Assembly (NCBI GenBank): GCA_016868315.1
Contig: VGHE01000001.1
Location: 372,001 to 436,000 of the forward strand
Length of the DNA: 64,000 nt
Direction of reading: 5' to 3'
Source of the DNA: Betaproteobacteria bacterium
GTDB lineage: Bacteria; Bdellovibrionota_B; Oligoflexia; Silvanigrellales; Silvanigrellaceae
The position numbers were made by a program, and so were the translations under genes. Positions within the stretch are counted from its first letter, which is position 1; every line of letters begins with the position of its first letter. Below the pieces are notes generated by a model. That model searched no databases and was not told where the DNA came from. It was given only the letters and a program-made list of their open reading frames with translations. Below are positions 10,835 through 22,495 of the stretch, piece after piece.

Positions 10835-11194
10835 TTACTTGGCCAAAAGAAACTTGAGTCCGGCCGAGACCAGGACAATACCAAAAATCTTTTTGAGAGT
10901 GTCCTGGGGAAGTTGGAGTGCCAGAGTTGCACCCAGGTAGGCGCCCAGCGCCATGGCACAGGCAATGTAGGCCGAGGAACGTATGTCGAGGTTTCCTGCG
11001 CGGTAATATTTCAGCGCAGCAAAAATACCCACAGGGAGAATCAGAGCTCCGATGGAGGTTCCTTGTGCGGAAATCTGACTCATCCCTCCCAACATAACCA
11101 ACAGAGGAACAATCACCAGGCCGCCACCGATTCCAACCAAACCACTAAGAATTCCTGCTGCGAGACCAATTCCAAGAAGCGTGAGTATGGGCAT
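10835..11194 (-). CDS. Half-size TauE/SafE-family membrane permease
   Basis: 119 aa, about half the usual ~250 aa of TauE/SafE sulfite/sulfonate exporters. It contains one complete repeat: GLAAGILSGLVGIGGGLVIVPLL, the family's hallmark, and a second conserved stretch GAYLGATLALQLPQDTLKKI, with about four hydrophobic helices. Single-repeat versions exist in the family and are assumed to dimerise. Its ATG overlaps the mtnB stop in TAATG, so it is likely co-translated with the methionine-salvage genes; export or import of a sulfur compound from that pathway is a reasonable guess. Confidence 0.85.
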   Translation of the reverse strand: MPILTLLGIGLAAGILSGLVGIGGGLVIVPLLVMLGGMSQISAQGTSIGALILPVGIFAALKYYRAGNLDIRSSAYIACAMALGAYLGATLALQLPQDTLKKIFGIVLVSAGLKFLLAK

Positions 11195-11874
11195 TATTGT
11201 TTGGCTCCTGTTTTGTTGGAAGGGGTTGTGAAGCCTACGTGCTTAAGCAGGTGGAGCACCGATTCAAGGTAAGCCTCTGCGCGCTCCACTGATTCGCCGC
11301 CACAGTATATTCCATGCTGAGCGAGAACGAACAGCACAGGACCCGATACAGCTGGGCTTTTTTGAAACTGCCGCTTTTGAATTTGCTCGGCCAGGACGCC
11401 CATGTCTTGGTGGTTCTCATAGACTGGAATCAACCATGGGGTGTTGTGGTCGGGGGCTCCAAGGGCTTTTAGCAATTCATGACCATCAAAGCGGAGCTGG
11501 TCAGGTTTGATTTTTTCTAACTCGGGTGCATGGCAATGCACTACGCAGTTAATCCAAGGACAATGTTTATAAACAAGTGCATGCAGAAGCGTCTCATCGC
11601 TCGGCTTCGGCGCCACATAAGCCAGTGCCTTACCGGAAAGGTCAACCAGTAGAAAGTCACCCGCGGTAAGAGCTCGTTTATGCTTTCCTGAGCGTGAGAT
11701 TAGGAGCGAATCAGTTGAGTGTCTCAAGCTGAAATTGCTGCTCGTGGCAGGGATCGCCAAACGCGCGTCGAGGCGGCTGGCAACCTGGCACAGACGCTCC
11801 AAGCGAATTTGCTCCAGCAGCGACAAAGGAAATTGCCGACTGGCATCGAAACGGTGCTTTCTTTCACTGCGCAC
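11194..11874 (-). CDS. mtnB: Methylthioribulose-1-phosphate dehydratase (class II aldolase family)
   Basis: 226 aa class II aldolase/adducin fold enzyme. In methionine salvage MtnB dehydrates 5-methylthioribulose-1-phosphate to 2,3-diketo-5-methylthiopentyl-1-phosphate. Visible features: ATSSNFSLR near the substrate phosphate site, SRSGKHK, zinc ligands in VVHCHAPE and a third histidine in LAQHGIYCGG. The start at 11874 overlaps the end of the RuBisCO-like gene by 11 bp, and the stop overlaps the permease start. Neighbours mtnA and mtnW make the MtnB assignment much more likely than fuculose or ribulose phosphate aldolases. Confidence 0.9.
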   Translation of the reverse strand: MRSERKHRFDASRQFPLSLLEQIRLERLCQVASRLDARLAIPATSSNFSLRHSTDSLLISRSGKHKRALTAGDFLLVDLSGKALAYVAPKPSDETLLHALVYKHCPWINCVVHCHAPELEKIKPDQLRFDGHELLKALGAPDHNTPWLIPVYENHQDMGVLAEQIQKRQFQKSPAVSGPVLFVLAQHGIYCGGESVERAEAYLESVLHLLKHVGFTTPSNKTGAKQ

Positions 11875-13042
11875 GGCTACAGACCTCCAATTGTTCGAGG
11901 AAGAGCTGTGCCGATGTTGCTACAGACTGTCCGCTCGCAAAAATTGCAGTGCCTGCGTTGAGAACGAAGTCGCGGCCGAAATCGCGGCAGGCAGCGGGAA
12001 CATGCTCAGGTTTGATGCCTGCACTCGGAACGGGAATAGACGGAAGAACCTGCGCTGGCCAGCTCATCCGACATGCATCGCTGATGCGCTGTGTGGTCGC
12101 TTTAGGCAGGCCAATTTTTCCATAAGGGCTTGGGAAGAGCGTGAGGTCAGCGCCTGCGGCGCGCAGGAGAGTTCCCAAAAGAACTGCCGGATCGATGGAG
12201 TCGCTCAGCTGTCCCTGACCCAGAGCCCCGGCCAACGCCGGGTGTGCCATGAGTGGGAGAGCAGTGAGGTGACGGAGTGATTGCAAAGTGCCCAGTCCGG
12301 TTGTCCACACATTGATAAGCAACGCATCTGCTCCTGCAGATTTGAGTTTCTCGCTCCAGTTCTTTAAAGATGCTTGCGCGCTCGCATCGATGGGTGCGTG
12401 CACCACGTAAAGTGTCTTCAGATTTTCCTTGGCTTTGCGATTGGCTACAATTTCGATGCGGCGCAGTGTTGTCGTGAAATCTGCGTCATGGCGTATCTCA
12501 TCGTCTTTGACGAGCTGCACGCCAGCGTGTGCGACTTCTGCGTAGAGGTCGGCAAGTGCAGCGGCCGACATGGCCACGTTGGGCTTGAGTATGCCCATCA
12601 ACAAAGGTCTTTCGGTTGAGGCTCCAACCTGCGCGCGAAATGACTGCAAAGTGTGCTTTGGACCAGTGAGCTTTGGAGAAGCGAAACAGCCCTCCTCAAA
12701 GGCAAGGTCTGTTAAACAGACCCCCGGATAAAAGCTCATTTTTCCGAACGTCAGAGTCAGGAGCCAGCTCAGTTCGCCGTGCCAAAGCTCCCATGGAAAA
12801 GCGATTGTGCCCTCATAGCCGCCTTCAATTTCACGTGTTGAGACGATCTTTGCAACGCGGCTTTGCAGCAGTGCAGGATCCACAAAGCGCTCATCCCAAG
12901 CGCCTACGGTTTGTCCTACCGCAATCTCTTCAAAAATCTCGGGACGGTGCAGTTTTGCATCGACCCGATAGGTCGCGAGAGCATGAGGTTGATTGTCCTT
13001 TTTATCCGCAGACACCGCACGCAGCGCAGGCGTGTAAATCAT
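11864..13042 (-). CDS. mtnW: RuBisCO-like protein, 2,3-diketo-5-methylthiopentyl-1-phosphate enolase
   Basis: 392 aa form IV RuBisCO-like protein. It keeps the RuBisCO framework: an N-terminal domain with ATYRVDAKL and FPGxCLTDL-like FYPGVCLTD, then the barrel with LMGILKPNVAMS (lysine of strand 1) and VQLVKDDEIRHD, where the lysine is the carbamylation site and DDE bind Mg2+. MtnW enolises the diketo product of MtnB. Its ATG overlaps the mtnA stop (ATGA). Genome context favours the salvage enolase over RuBisCO-like isomerases of the MTA-isoprenoid shunt. No true carbon fixation is implied. Confidence 0.9.
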   Translation of the reverse strand: MIYTPALRAVSADKKDNQPHALATYRVDAKLHRPEIFEEIAVGQTVGAWDERFVDPALLQSRVAKIVSTREIEGGYEGTIAFPWELWHGELSWLLTLTFGKMSFYPGVCLTDLAFEEGCFASPKLTGPKHTLQSFRAQVGASTERPLLMGILKPNVAMSAAALADLYAEVAHAGVQLVKDDEIRHDADFTTTLRRIEIVANRKAKENLKTLYVVHAPIDASAQASLKNWSEKLKSAGADALLINVWTTGLGTLQSLRHLTALPLMAHPALAGALGQGQLSDSIDPAVLLGTLLRAAGADLTLFPSPYGKIGLPKATTQRISDACRMSWPAQVLPSIPVPSAGIKPEHVPAACRDFGRDFVLNAGTAIFASGQSVATSAQLFLEQLEVCSRAQ

Positions 13043-14157
13043 TTTCGTAAAACTCCTTCAACGAATGAGCGCACGTCAATTGTCCGCAAAGCGTTTGGAG
13101 AAATAACCCCATGCTCGGTGATGATTCCGGAAATGAGCTCTGCCGGTGTGACATCGAATGATGGGTTCCACACTCCGATGCCCTCCGCTGCAAGGCGTTG
13201 TCCGAAGACATGAGTGAGTTCTTGGGCAGGACGCTCCTCGATGTGAATGTCCCGGCCTGAGGAAAGTTTTGTGTCGATGGAAGTCAGTGGTGCTGCGACA
13301 TAGAAAGGAACGTTGTGATGCTTGGCAGCAATTGCGAGCTGGTAGGTTCCAATTTTATTTGCGGTATCACCGTTGCTTACAACGCGATCTGCACCCACCA
13401 CGACGGCATCAATTTTTTCCTTCGCCATGAGGAACGAGACCATTGAGTCGGTTACCAGTGTCGCAGGAATCTTCTCGTAGACGAGTTCAAATGCGGTGAG
13501 ACGAGCTCCTTGATTGTAGGGGCGAGTTTCAGTTGCGTAGGCATGAACGAGTTGCCCACGTTCGTGAAGAGCCCGAATCACACCGAGAGCTGTGCCGTAG
13601 CCAACGGTTGCTAGGCTGCCGGTGTTGCAATGCGTGAGAATGCGCAGAGACTTTGGCTGTGCCTGCTTGAATAAATCGGCTCCGTGCGAGCCAATGGCGC
13701 GGTTGTCAGCGAGATCTTTCTCGAGCATGCCTTCAGCATGACCAATAAGTTCTTTAGCGAGAAGTTCGACTTTCTCTTTGTTACCTGTGCTTGACGTTTG
13801 CGCTGCTGCAAGAATCTTTTTAAACTCCCCGATAGCCTGAAACAAATTCACCGCAGTTGGTCGGCTTGCCGCCAACCGGTTGAGCCGACTCTCTATGGAT
13901 TGGAGAAAGTCGCTCAGGTTGCTTGCCTTCGTTACAAGAACCGGAATTTCAACTGCCAAACTCAAAGCAGCAGTTACGGCAATTGCTGGAGCACCGCGTA
14001 CTTTCATTGTCTCGATGGCTTGTGCACCCTCGTCTGCATTGTGCACGTTAAAGAACTCGGTTGTGTGAGGCAATTTGAGCTGATCGAGGAGTGAAAGTTG
14101 TCCGCGGCGGTATCGGATAGCCTCGAGTCGGTTTGAATTTTGTGTTGTCTGGGTCAT
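13039..14157 (-). CDS. mtnA: S-methyl-5-thioribose-1-phosphate isomerase
   Basis: 372 aa, eIF2B-like fold. MtnA converts methylthioribose-1-phosphate to methylthioribulose-1-phosphate. Family signatures: MKVRGAPAIAVTAALSLA, the catalytic cysteine in THCNTGSLATVGYGTALG and the catalytic aspartate in VVGADRVVSNGDTANKIGT. The ATG at 14157 is chosen because it forms an ATGA overlap with the upstream fusion gene and leaves a normal N-terminus; a longer frame to 14229 only adds basic residues. First of three consecutive salvage enzymes. Confidence 0.95.
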   Translation of the reverse strand: MTQTTQNSNRLEAIRYRRGQLSLLDQLKLPHTTEFFNVHNADEGAQAIETMKVRGAPAIAVTAALSLAVEIPVLVTKASNLSDFLQSIESRLNRLAASRPTAVNLFQAIGEFKKILAAAQTSSTGNKEKVELLAKELIGHAEGMLEKDLADNRAIGSHGADLFKQAQPKSLRILTHCNTGSLATVGYGTALGVIRALHERGQLVHAYATETRPYNQGARLTAFELVYEKIPATLVTDSMVSFLMAKEKIDAVVVGADRVVSNGDTANKIGTYQLAIAAKHHNVPFYVAAPLTSIDTKLSSGRDIHIEERPAQELTHVFGQRLAAEGIGVWNPSFDVTPAELISGIITEHGVISPNALRTIDVRSFVEGVLRK

Positions 14158-15164
14158 GGGAGTTTGCCTTGGATGAAGAAAGTTTGAATGGCGCGCGCGA
14201 GGGCGAGGTCTTTTTGTGACACTCCCCACTTTGGCTCATGCGTGACAAGCGTAATTTCGATGTTTTGAAAATCCCGCAAAACCAGACTGGTGTGATGATC
14301 GGAGGTTTCCTGTGCATCGTGTAGCCAGGAGAGTTTTTCAACGGCATCAGAATTTGATTTGAGCGTAAAATTAGCCTTCAGGCAAAAACCTTTTCCGTCA
14401 TGCATGATTTTCCACGAGGAAAGCGCATCTCCCGCTTTTGAAACCACCTCCTCCGGATTCTCGATCACAACTCTGGGTGCCTCGATGACTCCCTGTAAGA
14501 GCGGGTGTGGGTTCAGAAAGCGGTGCAGAGATGAGCGAACTATTCCATCGGTCGGAAGTGTCGTGCTCACTGCAGGGTGCTGTGAAAGTCGCGCGATGTA
14601 GTGAGCTGTTTTGCTGCTTGTTGGTGGTTTGGGTAGCTGGGGGTACTTCTCGAAAACCCACTGAAGGCGTGCGATGAAGGGCGCCAGGGAGACATCGATT
14701 GCATTGAGAGTTGTGCCTCCGAGGTAATCTCCCTTTGAGCGAGCGAGTTTCGCTTCCAACCAATCCCAGCAGGCGGGCAGTGCTGCTTCGGCCTTACGCA
14801 GTGTGTTGATGCTCCCAAATGCGTAGAACGTCATTTGGATTGTGGTGAGGACGCGCGAGGATGCAGCTTCGATTTGAGCTTTGGTGTGCGCAATGGCCGC
14901 CGGGCTTTCACCAAAGAGGCGCGCACCGGGAGCGTTGAGGGTGTCAATGAACTCCATAACAACGTGACTTTCGTTAAAGCCATATCCAGGTTCGAGTTCC
15001 AGTGTTGGTACGCTGCCAAACGGGTTGATTTCGAGGAGAGTGCTGGGCGGCGAGCTCAGGTCAACTTCAATACACTCGATCGTTTTCGGATCAATCTGCC
15101 GAAGTTTCATAGCGATGAGAACGCGATGAACGAATGGACACGTATGTGTCATGTAGAGTTTCAC
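14154..15164 (-). CDS. Fusion of glutathione S-transferase-like and pterin-4a-carbinolamine dehydratase-like domains
   Basis: 336 aa from the GTG at 15164, which has GGAG 8 nt upstream and gives the standard GST opening VKLYMTHTCPF; longer frames to 15281 lack support. Residues 1-80 are a thioredoxin-fold GST domain with CPF at 9-11 and NPFGSVPTLE; residues ~90-215 are helical like the GST C-terminal domain. Residues ~255-336 match pterin dehydratase (PCD/PhhB): E-x3-H-H (His290, His291), then x6 and Phe, x9 and His309, then an aspartate in WGVSQKD, the family signature apart from Thr after HH. The stop overlaps mtnA. Function is unknown; the domain calls are from motifs seen here, and their linkage to methionine salvage is inferred from the overlap. 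Confidence 0.75.
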   Translation of the reverse strand: MKLYMTHTCPFVHRVLIAMKLRQIDPKTIECIEVDLSSPPSTLLEINPFGSVPTLELEPGYGFNESHVVMEFIDTLNAPGARLFGESPAAIAHTKAQIEAASSRVLTTIQMTFYAFGSINTLRKAEAALPACWDWLEAKLARSKGDYLGGTTLNAIDVSLAPFIARLQWVFEKYPQLPKPPTSSKTAHYIARLSQHPAVSTTLPTDGIVRSSLHRFLNPHPLLQGVIEAPRVVIENPEEVVSKAGDALSSWKIMHDGKGFCLKANFTLKSNSDAVEKLSWLHDAQETSDHHTSLVLRDFQNIEITLVTHEPKWGVSQKDLALARAIQTFFIQGKLP

Positions 15165-15279
15165 GGCGGGTACTCCTTGCAGCACAGCGTCAAAAATCAT
15201 GTGGGAGGCCGAAAAGGTCAGCCGCCCCAGACGCTCACAGGCCGATGACGTTACGGGACAGCGTGCTGGGGTGCAACCC

Positions 15280-15765
15280 ATGGAAGCCTTCTGGATTCAG
15301 GTTATACATCTTTATTTTCCGGTGACGGTGGCTGTCATCGCGCAGCTGGTCTTTATTTTATTGCCCGTCAACCTTAGAACCTGGCGCCGAGATGTGCTCA
15401 ACGCGTGGACTTACTGCTGCATTCAGACTTTCGTTGCAGGAATCTTGTTTGTTGTGGTGCCTAAGGTCTTCGGTATCTTCAAACTTAGCGATAGTGCAGC
15501 CTTTGTGGCTATTCTTGCCGCATTCATCGCCAGCTGGTGGAAGGTCATTCGAACCATCCCGCTCGAGGCAACCTTCACCGTGAACTCCGAATTCGAGGAG
15601 CAGCCCGCCGTAACCTTCGATTATTTCTACAGTGCCGACCGTTTGCGGCAATTGGGTGAATTCGCAGCGAATGACTCCGGTGCTGTGGCACGCCGACACG
15701 CCCTCCGGGAGATGTTGGTGCGCCGCAGGGTCGACCGAAATATCGGTGAATCCGACGATAATTGA
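15280..15765 (+). CDS. Small membrane protein of unknown function
   Basis: 161 aa from the ATG at 15280, with GGGG about 9 nt upstream. Three hydrophobic helices are visible: residues ~5-28 (FWIQVIHLYFPVTVAVIAQL start), ~43-62 and ~70-85. The remainder is soluble, with a beta-like EATFTVNSEFEEQPAVTFDYF segment and an acidic, arginine-rich end. No family recognised. It is divergent from the GST/pterin dehydratase gene (115 bp apart) and lies upstream of tuf. Confidence 0.65.
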   Translation: MEAFWIQVIHLYFPVTVAVIAQLVFILLPVNLRTWRRDVLNAWTYCCIQTFVAGILFVVVPKVFGIFKLSDSAAFVAILAAFIASWWKVIRTIPLEATFTVNSEFEEQPAVTFDYFYSADRLRQLGEFAANDSGAVARRHALREMLVRRRVDRNIGESDDN

Positions 15766-18102: not shown

Positions 18103-19209
18103 TCAATTTTGTTGCTGAAAAGCGAATCCCAATCTTTGCTCGAGATTCTGCGGCAGAGCTGGGAGAGAAGAGCGCGGCAAGAGGAAAGTGGACAGGTTGA
18201 AAAGGTCTGCGAAGACCTTGGTTTTATCCAGTGTTGCGCGCAAATAGGCGTATCCCAGAGAGCCTCCGGTACCCACGCGGATGCCGATCATGCGGTGCAC
18301 CATGATGGCATGTTGGGCACGCCATTGCTGCAGCAGTTCGTCGATGTCGACAAGTAGGGTGAGCAAACGAAACGGGAGATGCAGTATAGGTTCTTCCCGA
18401 TATAGGTTGATGAACAGTGCGGCGTGTGTGGCGCGCAAGCTCAACCGACGCACGCCTTTGTCCACAAGGTCTTGGTGAAGTTGAGTGTCGAACAGGGCTT
18501 GGAAGTAGTTTTCTGTTTTTTCAACTTCACCCAGCTGACGCGCTTTCTCTTCACCCACCAGCAAAGGGTGGTTGGCAATGAATTCCCGATCTCGGGACAG
18601 ATGTTGCTTCAGTGCATTCTGATATTCTTGCCAGAAGGTGAATCCATCTTGAGTTTCAATAAACGGAGTGCGTTCAAGCCATTTTTCGATCAGAGCAAAC
18701 AGCGATGGTGCTGATTCTGCCTGACGCATTTGGGTCATTTCCTCGGGAGTCAGGCTTTTCGCAAAAGGTGACTCCGGGTTGGCGAGCAAAGGATGTTCTC
18801 GACGCACACCCAAAGTGGATTCTAGAATACGAAATTGAACGCTCTGAAAGCCAGATGCAGGGGAAACGAGATCGCGAAATTCGAGGAAATCGAGCGGAGT
18901 CATGGTTTCCAGAATGCGCAGATGGTCGATGAGAACCTTTTGAATTTCTGTAACGCGTGTCAGCCGGCCAACGGCTGTGCCCATCATTTTTTCATCGACA
19001 CGGTTGGTGGCGAACATTCCAGAAACAGAATTGAGCTCATGCAGAATTTGTTTGAACCAGAGCTCATGCGCTTGGTGCACAACAATAAAAAGAAGCTCAT
19101 CATGAGCTTCTTTTCCATGTTCAAGACTTTTGGGGAATTGGAGATTCAGCAGTTCCGGTACGCGCAGATAACTTCCATAGCTCAGGGGGCGACTGCTGAT
19201 CTTGTCCAT
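18103..19209 (-). CDS. kynA: Tryptophan 2,3-dioxygenase
   Basis: 368 aa heme enzyme that opens the indole ring of L-tryptophan to N-formylkynurenine. Family features: LSYGSYLRVPELLNLQ at the start, DELLFIVVHQAHELWFKQIL (substrate-pocket region), SGFQSVQFRILE, and HRMIGIRVGTGGSLGYAYLR with the heme histidine region. Longer than the ~280 aa bacterial norm and closer to the ~380-400 aa eukaryotic-like type. The ATG overlaps the nusG stop in TAATG, so it is translationally coupled to a transcription factor gene, an unexpected pairing. No kynU or kynB is nearby. Confidence 0.93.
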   Translation of the reverse strand: MDKISSRPLSYGSYLRVPELLNLQFPKSLEHGKEAHDELLFIVVHQAHELWFKQILHELNSVSGMFATNRVDEKMMGTAVGRLTRVTEIQKVLIDHLRILETMTPLDFLEFRDLVSPASGFQSVQFRILESTLGVRREHPLLANPESPFAKSLTPEEMTQMRQAESAPSLFALIEKWLERTPFIETQDGFTFWQEYQNALKQHLSRDREFIANHPLLVGEEKARQLGEVEKTENYFQALFDTQLHQDLVDKGVRRLSLRATHAALFINLYREEPILHLPFRLLTLLVDIDELLQQWRAQHAIMVHRMIGIRVGTGGSLGYAYLRATLDKTKVFADLFNLSTFLLPRSSLPALPQNLEQRLGFAFQQQN

Positions 19210-19820
19210 TACTCGCCTTCTTTGACTTTCTCGACTTTGTTGAATTCAATTTCAACTGGGGTTGGGCGACCGAACACAGAGATGAGAAGTCGCAACTTCA
19301 TTTTGTCGGGCTTCACTTCGTCCACGTCACCCACAAAGTTGGTGAATGGGCCGTCGATGACGCGCAGACGCTCTCCCTTTTCAAAGTGCATCTTAGGACG
19401 CGCAGCGATTTCCTTCGCCATGTAGGCGGTACGGTTGATTACGCGATCGACTTCTTCATCGGTCAGGGCCGGTGGCTCGCGGTTGGGAGCCGCACCAATG
19501 AAACTCGAGATTTTCGGAGTATCTTTTACGCAGTGGTAAGCTGACTTCTCCGAGAGATCCATTTGGATGAAGATGTAGCCCGGCATGAGCTTCTGCTCAA
19601 TACGCTTCTTCTTACCTTTTTCATCGATCTTTTCGATTGTTTGCGAAGGAATGATGATTTGGCCGAAGTAATCGCTCAGGTTGAGCTTTTTGATGCGCTC
19701 TTCCAATGCTGTTTTGGCTTTTTTCTCCATTCCCGACTGGGTCGTGATGGCGTACCAGCGCAGCTTTTCGTTGCGGATGGTTGGAGTGCTTTCAGAAGAA
19801 TTTTGAACTTCTTGTGTCAT
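19209..19820 (-). CDS. nusG: Transcription termination/antitermination factor NusG
   Basis: 203 aa from the ATG at 19820; a GTG two codons earlier (19826) is also possible, both near GAGG. The NGN domain begins LRWYAITTQSGMEKKAKTAL and contains KLMPGYIFIQMDL and FIGA; the C-terminal KOW domain contains GERLRVIDGPFTNFVGDVDE and ends VEIEFNKVEKV. NusG binds RNA polymerase and links it to Rho or the ribosome. It follows secE as usual, but rplK, rplA and rpoBC are not downstream. Confidence 0.97.
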   Translation of the reverse strand: MTQEVQNSSESTPTIRNEKLRWYAITTQSGMEKKAKTALEERIKKLNLSDYFGQIIIPSQTIEKIDEKGKKKRIEQKLMPGYIFIQMDLSEKSAYHCVKDTPKISSFIGAAPNREPPALTDEEVDRVINRTAYMAKEIAARPKMHFEKGERLRVIDGPFTNFVGDVDEVKPDKMKLRLLISVFGRPTPVEIEFNKVEKVKEGE

Positions 19821-19832
19821 TTTCACAGATCC

Positions 19833-20315: not shown

Positions 20316-21233
20316 CTATGGGCAAGTTGGCGGACAAAGGTGCGTGATCAGCCGCCCCGCGCGAGGCTGACCCTCGGCCATGGCGCGGCGATGGCTGGGC
20401 CAATGATGGCTCCCGAAGGTGTCGTCCCGAAAAACCGTTATGGCCGCCAGCGGTGTGCCTAATGCGTGCAGCTCGATGCACATGAGAGCCTGCAGGTCAG
20501 GTTGGATTTTTCCCGATTCTGCGAACGTCCCGAGCCCAATGACTTCCCAGAATGCGCGCTCATGCTTTTCGCTCCAACCTGGGAGGGTTCTAAGCGAGTG
20601 CGCATGGTGGTCACGAAATGCAAGCAGAACGTCCTCGCCGCAGGGGTAGCGCTTTCCTGCGATGGCTGGACCAACGGTCACAAAGACGTCCGAGGCCAAC
20701 ACAGGCTTATGCTTGTGAACGGAAACCTGAGAATTCAACAGGCTCATCGCGTTGTGCTGGATTCCGCCAGTAAACCCGCGCCAACCCGCATGAAAGCAGG
20801 TTGCGAAAAGAACTTCACTGGAGCTTTCAGCCGTTATACCGACAGCCAGGCAATCTGCAGTTTGAATGGCGAGTGGGGCACGAAAATGACTCCCGACAAC
20901 AGCGAGACCATCGGCGCGCTCAAGTTGATTCGAGTCAAATGACTCAAGCCGAGCAACCAGGTTTGAGTGAAATGCAGACACTCGCCAGCTCCCTGGAAGA
21001 TGCGTTTCACGCGTCCACACAACTTCCGAGCCGCAGCGGCCGTGTTGCACACCAACAAGGCTGTGATCGGTATGAATGATTAGGTCTTTATATTCCAAGG
21101 GCTCGTTGAGGTCAGATAGGAAGTCCAAGAACGCAGTAGGCCAGGCTGCTGGCGTTGCTGCGTTGGATTTTGTCCAGGTGGATTGGCCTGCGCTCGCTGC
21201 TTGGTGCTGCGAGCCGAGCGATACGACCTTCAT
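20316..21233 (-). CDS. pgeF: YfiH/PgeF-family laccase-domain protein (peptidoglycan editing factor)
   Basis: 305 aa from the ATG at 21233, chosen because it makes an ATGA overlap with the upstream methyltransferase gene; the longer frame to 21383 reads another frame of that gene. Conserved family blocks: ERADGLAV, LAIQTADCLAVGI (Cys ligand), CFHAGWRGFTGGI (His ligand), VGPAIAGKRYPCGEDV. YfiH proteins bind metal; roles reported include removal of mis-incorporated residues from peptidoglycan precursors and purine nucleoside phosphorolysis. The C-terminal CTHC-type end seems altered. Confidence 0.88.
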   Translation of the reverse strand: MKVVSLGSQHQAASAGQSTWTKSNAATPAAWPTAFLDFLSDLNEPLEYKDLIIHTDHSLVGVQHGRCGSEVVWTRETHLPGSWRVSAFHSNLVARLESFDSNQLERADGLAVVGSHFRAPLAIQTADCLAVGITAESSSEVLFATCFHAGWRGFTGGIQHNAMSLLNSQVSVHKHKPVLASDVFVTVGPAIAGKRYPCGEDVLLAFRDHHAHSLRTLPGWSEKHERAFWEVIGLGTFAESGKIQPDLQALMCIELHALGTPLAAITVFRDDTFGSHHWPSHRRAMAEGQPRAGRLITHLCPPTCP

Positions 21234-22495
21234 TCGTCCATGTCGCTGGCAAATTCGTTGTCTGTCATGGTGGCAACAGCTGCGTCGGTTTGCAAAGCAC
21301 TGAGAAGAACGCCTGTCGCCACGGCGACATTGAGAGAATCCACGGCAGCGATCCCGCCTGGAATCTTGACGAGGTAATCGCAATGGCGAGCAACTTCTTG
21401 GCGCATGCCTTTGGCTTCGTTGCCGACAACGAGAACGTAGTGACGATCTGTCGGCAGTTCATTGTGGCGTGCCGTTGCCGTAAGCGAAGAGCCTACAACC
21501 CAAACACCCGCTTTCTTAAGCATCTCAAGCGCTCGATTGATGTTCACGGTGGGAACAAGGTGAAGACTGAACGCGCCGCCGGACGAGGTCTTTACAACCA
21601 GCGGGGTGATTTCTGCTTGTCGGTCTTCGCCAAACACCACGAATTTTGCGCCAAAAAATGCAGCGGTGCGCATGATCGCACCGAAATTTCTTGGATCTTG
21701 CACCTGATCCAAAACAATCCCAAGACACCCGTGCGGTGTTTCTGTAATCCAATCAGGAAGATTTTGAATCACATCGTGGATGCTCACCGTAGGCAGATTA
21801 GGTACTTTCAAACAAACGCGCTGGTGATTGAGTTGTTCTTCTGAATTCAGCGGCCAGGTTTCGTCTTCCTGACTCTTACAGAGTGTGATTTTAAAACCCA
21901 TCGCTTTACATGGCTCAACAATATTTTTGAGCTGCGAAGGCACGCGCCCGCTTTTGTCTGCAATCACATACAGAGCGTGCGCTTTTTGGTCGACATTTTC
22001 GTCTTGCATGAGCCGAGCGATATAGTTTTCGAGCGGGCGGCGTCCCCAAACGTGAAACTCACGTGGAGCACGTGCGGTCTTGAGATCTTGCACGACCCGG
22101 GTTGTTGTTTGTGGACGTGCTGCTGGCTGACTCCTTTCAAAGACCTTTGGACGGCCAGCGGATTGTGGACGGCCAGCGGATTGTGGACGGCCAGCGGATT
22201 GTGGACGGCCAGCGGATTGTGGACGGCCAGCGGATTGTGGACGGCCAGCAGATTGTGGACGGCCAGCAGATTGTGGACGGCCAGCAGATTGTGGACGGCC
22301 AGCAGATTGTGGACGGCCAGCGGATTGTGGACGGCCAGCGGATTGTGGACGGCCAGCGGATTGTGGACGGCCGCCGGATGGCCGCGCCTTCTGGGAGCGC
22401 GGTTGGGCAGACCCGCGTTCCGCCCCGGATTTGCGCTGCACCCGTGAGTTGGTTTCTGGGGAGCGGGAGCTTGGGGAACGCTTCGTAGGTTTCAT
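21230..22495 (-). CDS. SpoU/TrmH-family RNA 2'-O-methyltransferase (RlmB-like) with repetitive N-terminal extension
   Basis: 421 aa. The N-terminal ~145 residues are basic and low complexity, with 12 perfect RPQSAG hexapeptides at residues ~43-114. Then comes an RlmB-like substrate-binding domain starting FHVWGRRPLENYI, and the SPOUT knot with GIVLDQVQDPRNFGAIMRTA, LVVGNEAKGMR and IPGGIAAVDSLNVAVATGV, the three SpoU motifs. Closest to RlmB, which methylates 23S rRNA G2251, but exact specificity cannot be read from sequence. The repeat tail resembles RNA-binding disordered extensions. It overlaps pgeF by four bases. Confidence 0.88.
   Translation of the reverse strand: MKPTKRSPSSRSPETNSRVQRKSGAERGSAQPRSQKARPSGGRPQSAGRPQSAGRPQSAGRPQSAGRPQSAGRPQSAGRPQSAGRPQSAGRPQSAGRPQSAGRPQSAGRPQSAGRPKVFERSQPAARPQTTTRVVQDLKTARAPREFHVWGRRPLENYIARLMQDENVDQKAHALYVIADKSGRVPSQLKNIVEPCKAMGFKITLCKSQEDETWPLNSEEQLNHQRVCLKVPNLPTVSIHDVIQNLPDWITETPHGCLGIVLDQVQDPRNFGAIMRTAAFFGAKFVVFGEDRQAEITPLVVKTSSGGAFSLHLVPTVNINRALEMLKKAGVWVVGSSLTATARHNELPTDRHYVLVVGNEAKGMRQEVARHCDYLVKIPGGIAAVDSLNVAVATGVLLSALQTDAAVATMTDNEFASDMDE
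22152..22367. repeat. 12 tandem copies of an 18-bp unit inside the RlmB-like gene
   Basis: Unit CGGCCAGCGGATTGTGGA repeated 12 times head to tail, coding RPQSAG on the minus strand. Units 1-5 and 10-12 (plus-strand order) have AGCGG, units 6-9 have AGCAG; the difference is silent (TCC/TCT serine). The block pattern suggests recent expansion by slippage or unequal recombination, so copy number probably varies between strains. Confidence 0.98.

Follow-up and report, generated by a model that had tools for sequence, protein, structure and literature searches.

A glutathione S-transferase fused to a pterin dehydratase-like domain heads a methionine-salvage gene cluster in Silvanigrellaceae

Why should a glutathione S-transferase (GST) and a pterin-4a-carbinolamine dehydratase (PCD)-like domain be joined in one protein at the head of a methionine-salvage gene cluster, and which pathway does each half serve? 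The fusion gene lies in the window (the whole stretch of DNA analyzed, 64,000 nucleotides of the Silvanigrellaceae contig VGHE01000001.1). An earlier note, made from the sequence alone, had recognized both halves there and proposed a tie to an oxidized cofactor or thiol intermediate of the salvage pathway. The relevant features are as follows.

14154-15164, minus strand: GST-PCD fusion gene, 336 aa with a GTG start; orthologues found
15173-15178, minus strand: Shine-Dalgarno sequence AAGGAG, 8 nt ahead of the GTG at 15164; read from the sequence
14523-15164, minus strand: Cys-type GST half, a thioredoxin-fold N-domain (CPF, cis-Pro, E-S) and an all-helical C-domain; Pfam, AlphaFold2 and Foldseek
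15138-15140, minus strand: codon of the invariant catalytic-type Cys (CPF); from the alignment, kept also in G004 and G013
14181-14441, minus strand: PCD domain, E-x3-HH-x7-F-x9-H-x9-D; Pfam, AlphaFold2, Foldseek and invariant columns
13039-14157, minus strand: mtnA, 5-methylthioribose-1-phosphate isomerase (TIGR00512, 5.3e-143)
11864-13042, minus strand: mtnW-type RuBisCO-like protein (enolase type), with the FGK lysine and KDDE metal motif conserved
11194-11874, minus strand: mtnB-like class II aldolase-family dehydratase; profile matches
10835-11194, minus strand: half-length TauE/SafE-type membrane protein, overlapping mtnB; same position in G001 and G002
15280-15765, plus strand: small membrane protein, divergent; a neighbor at all 11 fusion loci and in G005

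The coordinates, strand and start given to the fusion gene in the earlier note were right, the GTG start being backed by a strong ribosome-binding site. Residue numbers used here (C10, H291, etc.) are those of protein copy P0001, which begins one codon before this start. The fusion stop and the mtnA start overlap in ATGA, as had been read from the sequence, and similar overlaps run through mtnA-mtnW-mtnB-tauE, with the fusion gene first in the cluster. The adjoining, co-directional mtnA is a clear equivalog (TIGR00512, 476 bits) and is present at 11 of 11 fusion loci. At the far end of the cluster, the TauE/SafE-like protein comprises 119 aa, about half of its family profile, and is translationally coupled to mtnB; its copies in G001 and G002 are 91–98% identical to it, far above the adjacent mtn genes. 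The small membrane protein has a weak match to SLATT_1 (E 0.01) and lies between EF-Tu and the fusion gene family-wide. Elsewhere in the window, a tryptophan 2,3-dioxygenase gene overlaps the end of nusG (18103-19826, minus strand), and the two are also adjacent in G001, G002 and G003. A TrmH/SpoU-type RNA methyltransferase (21230-22495, minus strand) has a tail at its N terminus in which GRPQSA recurs about a dozen times, and the reverse strand of this region is a long repeat open reading frame as well.

The N-terminal half is a GST. Pfam placed GST_N_2 at residues 9–76 (3e-13) and GST_C_2 at residues 124–169 (3.1e-6), both above cut-off, and residues ~1–215 of the AlphaFold2 model matched omega, tau, DHAR and TDR1-type GSTs in Foldseek, which bears out the extent first proposed for this half. 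Its CPF motif occupies residues 10–12. Among 10 aligned sequences, C10, P11, V53-P54 (cis-Pro) and S67 are invariant and E66 is conserved in at least 90%, the pattern of a Cys-type GST. Class assignment depended on the method: the best phmmer matches were TDR1 and omega GSTs, and Foldseek returned a mix of tau, omega, DHAR and SspA. Among NCBIfam GST families, maleylacetoacetate isomerase (maiA) gave the fusion protein its highest score (1.5e-8; 34.5 bits against a cut-off of 171). With the fusion protein as query, a search of G000 at E 0.001 yielded no second GST.

The PCD catalytic motif reads E-x3-HH-[PCS]...[YWF]...[HW]...D. In the C-terminal half, residues 243–329 matched Pterin_4a (PF01329; 4.8e-10, 39.9 bits against a cut-off of 26), and the motif residues are E287-x3-H291H292-x7-F300-x9-H310-x9-D320, exactly the spacing that had been described, with Thr after HH. 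The Glu, both His, the third His and the Asp are invariant in the 10 aligned sequences; HH is followed by T, A, S or C, partly outside [PCS], but the catalytic positions are all kept. AlphaFold2 modeled the whole protein with a mean pLDDT of 93 and a pTM of 0.85, and the isolated C-domain with a pLDDT of 93. When the C-domain model was searched with Foldseek, all 22 PDB matches at E ≤ 0.001 were PCD/DCoH; ranks 23–26 were DCoH or acRAF, the latter at 24 and 26. The predicted structure thus confirms a PCD fold for this half. Both halves were matched in Pfam, and the outcome that the earlier note had named as fatal, no PCD match at the C terminus, did not occur. The domain is very divergent: it forms a long branch in the tree (support 0.999), and its best score against the NCBIfam 4a-hydroxytetrahydrobiopterin dehydratase equivalogs was 36 bits (cut-off 80), so it is not filed as an equivalog.

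Eleven of the 14 Silvanigrellaceae genomes examined carry the fusion unbroken, in three genera and including two single-contig genomes, which rules out chance or an artefact of one assembly; restriction to a single assembly had been the other outcome counted against the original idea. All 11 have mtnA-mtnW-mtnB downstream, with mtnP inserted before mtnA in genus g5, and the divergent small membrane gene and EF-Tu on the other flank. The proposed coupling to methionine-salvage genes is therefore conserved. The fusion was absent from the other families of the class examined and was not found in the plasmid collection, where the GST half alone was matched. A scan of genome contigs with two PCD peptide patterns, which very different fusions could escape, gave five fusion loci, four with Silvanigrellales names and one in a Proteobacteria MAG (RFOM01000043.1). 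Public names at matching loci are Silvanigrella, Silvanigrellales, Fluviispira multicolorata and Spirobacillus cienkowskii, in addition to the one MAG titled Proteobacteria. Close pairs gave dN/dS values of 0.12–0.19 on both halves, indicating purifying selection; the G009/G010 pair had too few changes to be informative. The mtnA gene of G009 (Spirobacillus; C92:4228-5244) has one in-frame TAG, which is absent from the near-identical G010. We found no paper that joins GST and PCD in one protein and none on Silvanigrella with methionine salvage. GST-PCD is thus a real, conserved architecture built from known families, and apparently an undescribed one.

The neighboring genes resemble those of a dioxygenase-type salvage pathway. 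Among solved structures, MtnW enolases from Bacillus and Geobacillus come closest to the RuBisCO-like protein, which retains KDDE as well as the FGK lysine (residue 98 of 2OEK) and scores 239.6 against the cut-off of 409 for the MtnW DK-MTP-1-P enolase equivalog of NCBIfam. A second salvage cluster in G000 and G001 contains mtnP, gloB, a cupin (H-x-H-x3-E-x-R) and a HAD phosphatase. In G003, mtnP and gloB precede the cupin, and the gloB-cupin-HAD cluster also occurs in G005 and in the g5 genomes read; gloB of G007 scores 265 bits with TIGR03413. The cupin has the expected motif and reaches ~19.5–22 bits with the acireductone dioxygenase profile PF03079 (gathering score 27). We infer that it is a divergent acireductone dioxygenase and that the HAD protein is an MtnX-like phosphatase, both scoring below cut-off. 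Glutathione synthetase (gshB) is encoded in 13 of the 14 family genomes.

The distribution of the PCD half follows a different partner, phenylalanine hydroxylase (PAH). None of the fusion genomes has a PCD besides the fused one, and in 9 of the 11 an unlinked PAH is encoded. All 10 PAH-bearing genomes of the family have exactly one PCD, fused in nine. Where PAH is missing, PCD has been lost (G005), has decayed (G004) or has accelerated (G010), and the fused PCDs of the PAH-less G009 and G010 keep every catalytic residue. On the same topology, the PCD branch at the G010 tip is 0.97 substitutions per site long; the corresponding values are 0.28 for G006 and 0.15–0.39 on the G007/G012 path. The comparison covers one lineage and 79 columns. 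The mtnA branches show no such excess (0.29 for G010, 0.22 for G006, 0.36–0.40 on the G007/G012 path); the GST C-domain is somewhat fast too in the G009/G010 lineage. These values suggest that constraint on PCD relaxed after PAH was lost in this one lineage. Of the 44 genomes of the class that fall outside the family, 36 match Biopterin_H (the PAH domain) and 6 have a PCD, five of those six with PAH; a PAH need not, therefore, have a PCD. Most other families of the class lack a PCD gene and encode a protein of ~600 aa whose Biopterin_H match is split (e.g., G024:C112:11637-12446). In other pyomelanin producers phhB sits with phhA, whereas in Legionella phhB lies elsewhere, beside an aminotransferase gene (PMC3458870), so the separation of a PCD from PAH is in itself nothing out of the ordinary, unlike its fusion to a GST. 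HPPD-like and HgmA-like genes, with scores below cut-off, occur in most of the family, and no FAH or maiA was recognized near them. The HgmA-like protein is a double cupin (PF20510/PF04209, near cut-off; L110:7093-8280, L112:7118-8293), and in almost every genome of the family its gene has those of glutathione synthetase and a murG-like protein as neighbors.

Three of the 14 genomes lack the fusion. In G005, mtnA-W-B occupy the same EF-Tu site, where a GST is missing, and the genome has neither PCD nor PAH, which indicates that salvage does not require the fusion. G004 gave no matches for mtnA, PAH or PCD, and retains the GST with a tail that lacks the PCD motif. The GST of G013 has a different fusion partner, the acireductone dioxygenase-like cupin of the salvage cluster, which is the only copy of this cupin in the genome, and there is no fused PCD. 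One G013 contig ends with GST::cupin, HAD and the first part of mtnP; a second opens with the closing part of mtnP ahead of mtnA-W-B, so that both contigs end inside mtnP. The PCD of this genome is canonical, standalone (93 bits) and adjoins PAH. That PAH is of a foreign type, 35–42% identical to the family PAHs, which share 53–93% among themselves; with the best solved bacterial PAH it scores 276 bits, whereas the Fluviispira PAH scores 146. Most simply, G013 would have gained a phhA-phhB pair, after which the fused PCD was replaced.

The GST thus follows methionine salvage and the PCD follows PAH, and the best-supported account, which we favor tentatively, is a composite protein whose GST half is tied to salvage and whose PCD half recycles the PAH cofactor. 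The two halves probably have separate jobs. The Cys-type GST (omega/dehydroascorbate reductase/TDR1-like) would bind glutathione, its CPF cysteine performing thiol transfer or reduction; it would act in methionine salvage, and our guess at its likeliest substrate is an oxidized or methylthio-bearing intermediate near the acireductone step. The divergent PCD half, probably active, would dehydrate the 4a-hydroxytetrahydropterin released by the unlinked PAH and so permit cofactor reuse. The salvage operon would govern expression of the fusion protein. What ties the GST half to salvage is its operon position with mtnA-W-B in 11 of 11 cases and the GST on the sole salvage cupin of G013, and gshB in 13 of 14 genomes is in keeping with this; to that extent the proposed tie to a pathway intermediate stands. 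It is less well supported for the PCD half, which tracks PAH better than methionine salvage, as seen from its status as sole PCD, its fate where PAH is missing, and the phhA with canonical PCD in G013, where no PCD is fused. Two unrelated jobs in one conserved fusion are, however, unparsimonious. The divergence of the PCD and its sub-equivalog score, its intact catalytic residues in the PAH-less G009 and G010, the occurrence of PAH without PCD elsewhere in the class, salvage genes running without the GST in G005 and the GST persisting without mtnA in G004 also count against the two-job account.

A shared chemistry of the two halves is possible. Acireductone is a reductone like ascorbate, which makes the reduction of oxidized acireductone by a DHAR-like GST chemically reasonable. 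The GST half might then be a dedicated glutathione-dependent salvage reductase, with the PCD fusion coupling thiol and pterin redox recycling in one polypeptide. We regard this reading as a whole as unlikely; oxidized acireductone or methylthio-glutathione disulfide, returned to the pathway, are example substrates suggested by the GST::cupin fusion. Alternatively, both halves might recycle pterin, PCD yielding quinonoid dihydropterin and the Cys-GST with glutathione reducing it to tetrahydropterin in place of an NADH-dependent reductase, with the operon incidental. The PCD reaction and the reduction of quinonoid dihydropterin are consecutive steps of pterin recycling, the sole PCD mostly accompanies PAH, and the GST resembles redox-type GSTs, its solved relatives including an omega GST annotated as pyrimidodiazepine synthase (10ha), an enzyme that uses a tetrahydropterin substrate. 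We nevertheless consider this unlikely, given that the GST persists without PCD on a salvage cupin in G013 and without PAH or an intact PCD in G004, and that membership of the mtnA operon is invariant in fusion genomes.

The converse, that the whole protein is a salvage accessory in which the GST and a re-used PCD motif act on the same intermediate (dehydrating, for example, a hydrated diketone or a glutathione hemithioketal), draws on the joint occurrence of fusion and mtn operon in all 11 genomes, two of them without PAH, on the very long PCD branch and on gloB, a glutathione thioester hydrolase gene, in the second cluster. But these mtn genes also occur in G005 and G013, which have no fused PCD, PCD evolution accelerates on PAH loss though mtn is kept, and the canonical catalytic residues remain, making such a role decidedly unlikely. 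A bifunctional enzyme of phenylalanine/tyrosine catabolism, with PCD serving PAH and the GST acting as maleylacetoacetate isomerase, is improbable. The top NCBIfam rank of maiA, the HPPD-like and HgmA-like genes and the lack of another GST match in G000 would fit it, but the maiA score is far under cut-off, the HPPD and HgmA matches are themselves sub-threshold with no FAH or maiA recognized nearby, and the operon with mtn is left unexplained. Zeta GSTs, moreover, have a Ser-Ser-Cys active-site motif, and here it is CPF. We also consider it very unlikely that the PCD fold helps to assemble the RuBisCO-like MtnW, as acRAF does for carboxysomal RuBisCO. The fusion gene is two genes from mtnW and acRAF (4LOW) is among the fold matches, yet true PCDs match better, the catalytic His, needless in an assembly factor, is kept, and G005 and G013 have mtnW without a fused PCD domain.

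The natural exchange of PCD for cupin on the same GST points directly towards a step of methionine salvage that would depend on glutathione. G013 aside, the only pterin dehydratase of the PAH-bearing Silvanigrellaceae sits in an unexpected protein, and annotation by operon alone would place it in the wrong pathway.

Each component has known relatives. The GST shares the CPF cysteine, cis-Pro, E-S glutathione site and two-domain fold with omega GSTs, plant DHAR and Leishmania TDR1, but is ~22–28% identical to them, carries a C-terminal PCD extension and is encoded in a bacterial operon with mtnA. The PCD has the fold, the E-x3-HH...F...H...D residues and the pterin-dehydratase profile of PhhB/PCD (DCoH; 2EBB, 3JST, 1DCH); it differs in lying behind a GST, in having Thr, Ser, Ala or Cys in place of Pro after HH, in not being beside phhA and in its sub-equivalog score. 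acRAF likewise has a PCD fold near a RuBisCO-family gene, whereas the window PCD retains its catalytic histidines and matches acRAF less well than true PCDs. The MTA-isoprenoid shunt of Rhodospirillum/Rhodopseudomonas, in which a cupin methylsulfurylase works with glutathione and a methylthio-glutathione reductase has been postulated with no gene assigned (PMC5893883), was considered because of the cupin and glutathione. It resembles the present system in combining these with a RuBisCO-like protein in MTA metabolism, but is disfavored: the RuBisCO-like protein is nearest MtnW enolases, and together with MtnB and the HAD phosphatase it points to the dioxygenase pathway. Gene fusions in methionine salvage are also known from Tetrahymena (MtnAK and MtnBD), and those reviewed join pathway enzymes only (PMC6302742); here, by contrast, the partner of the GST is a PCD or, in G013, a cupin.
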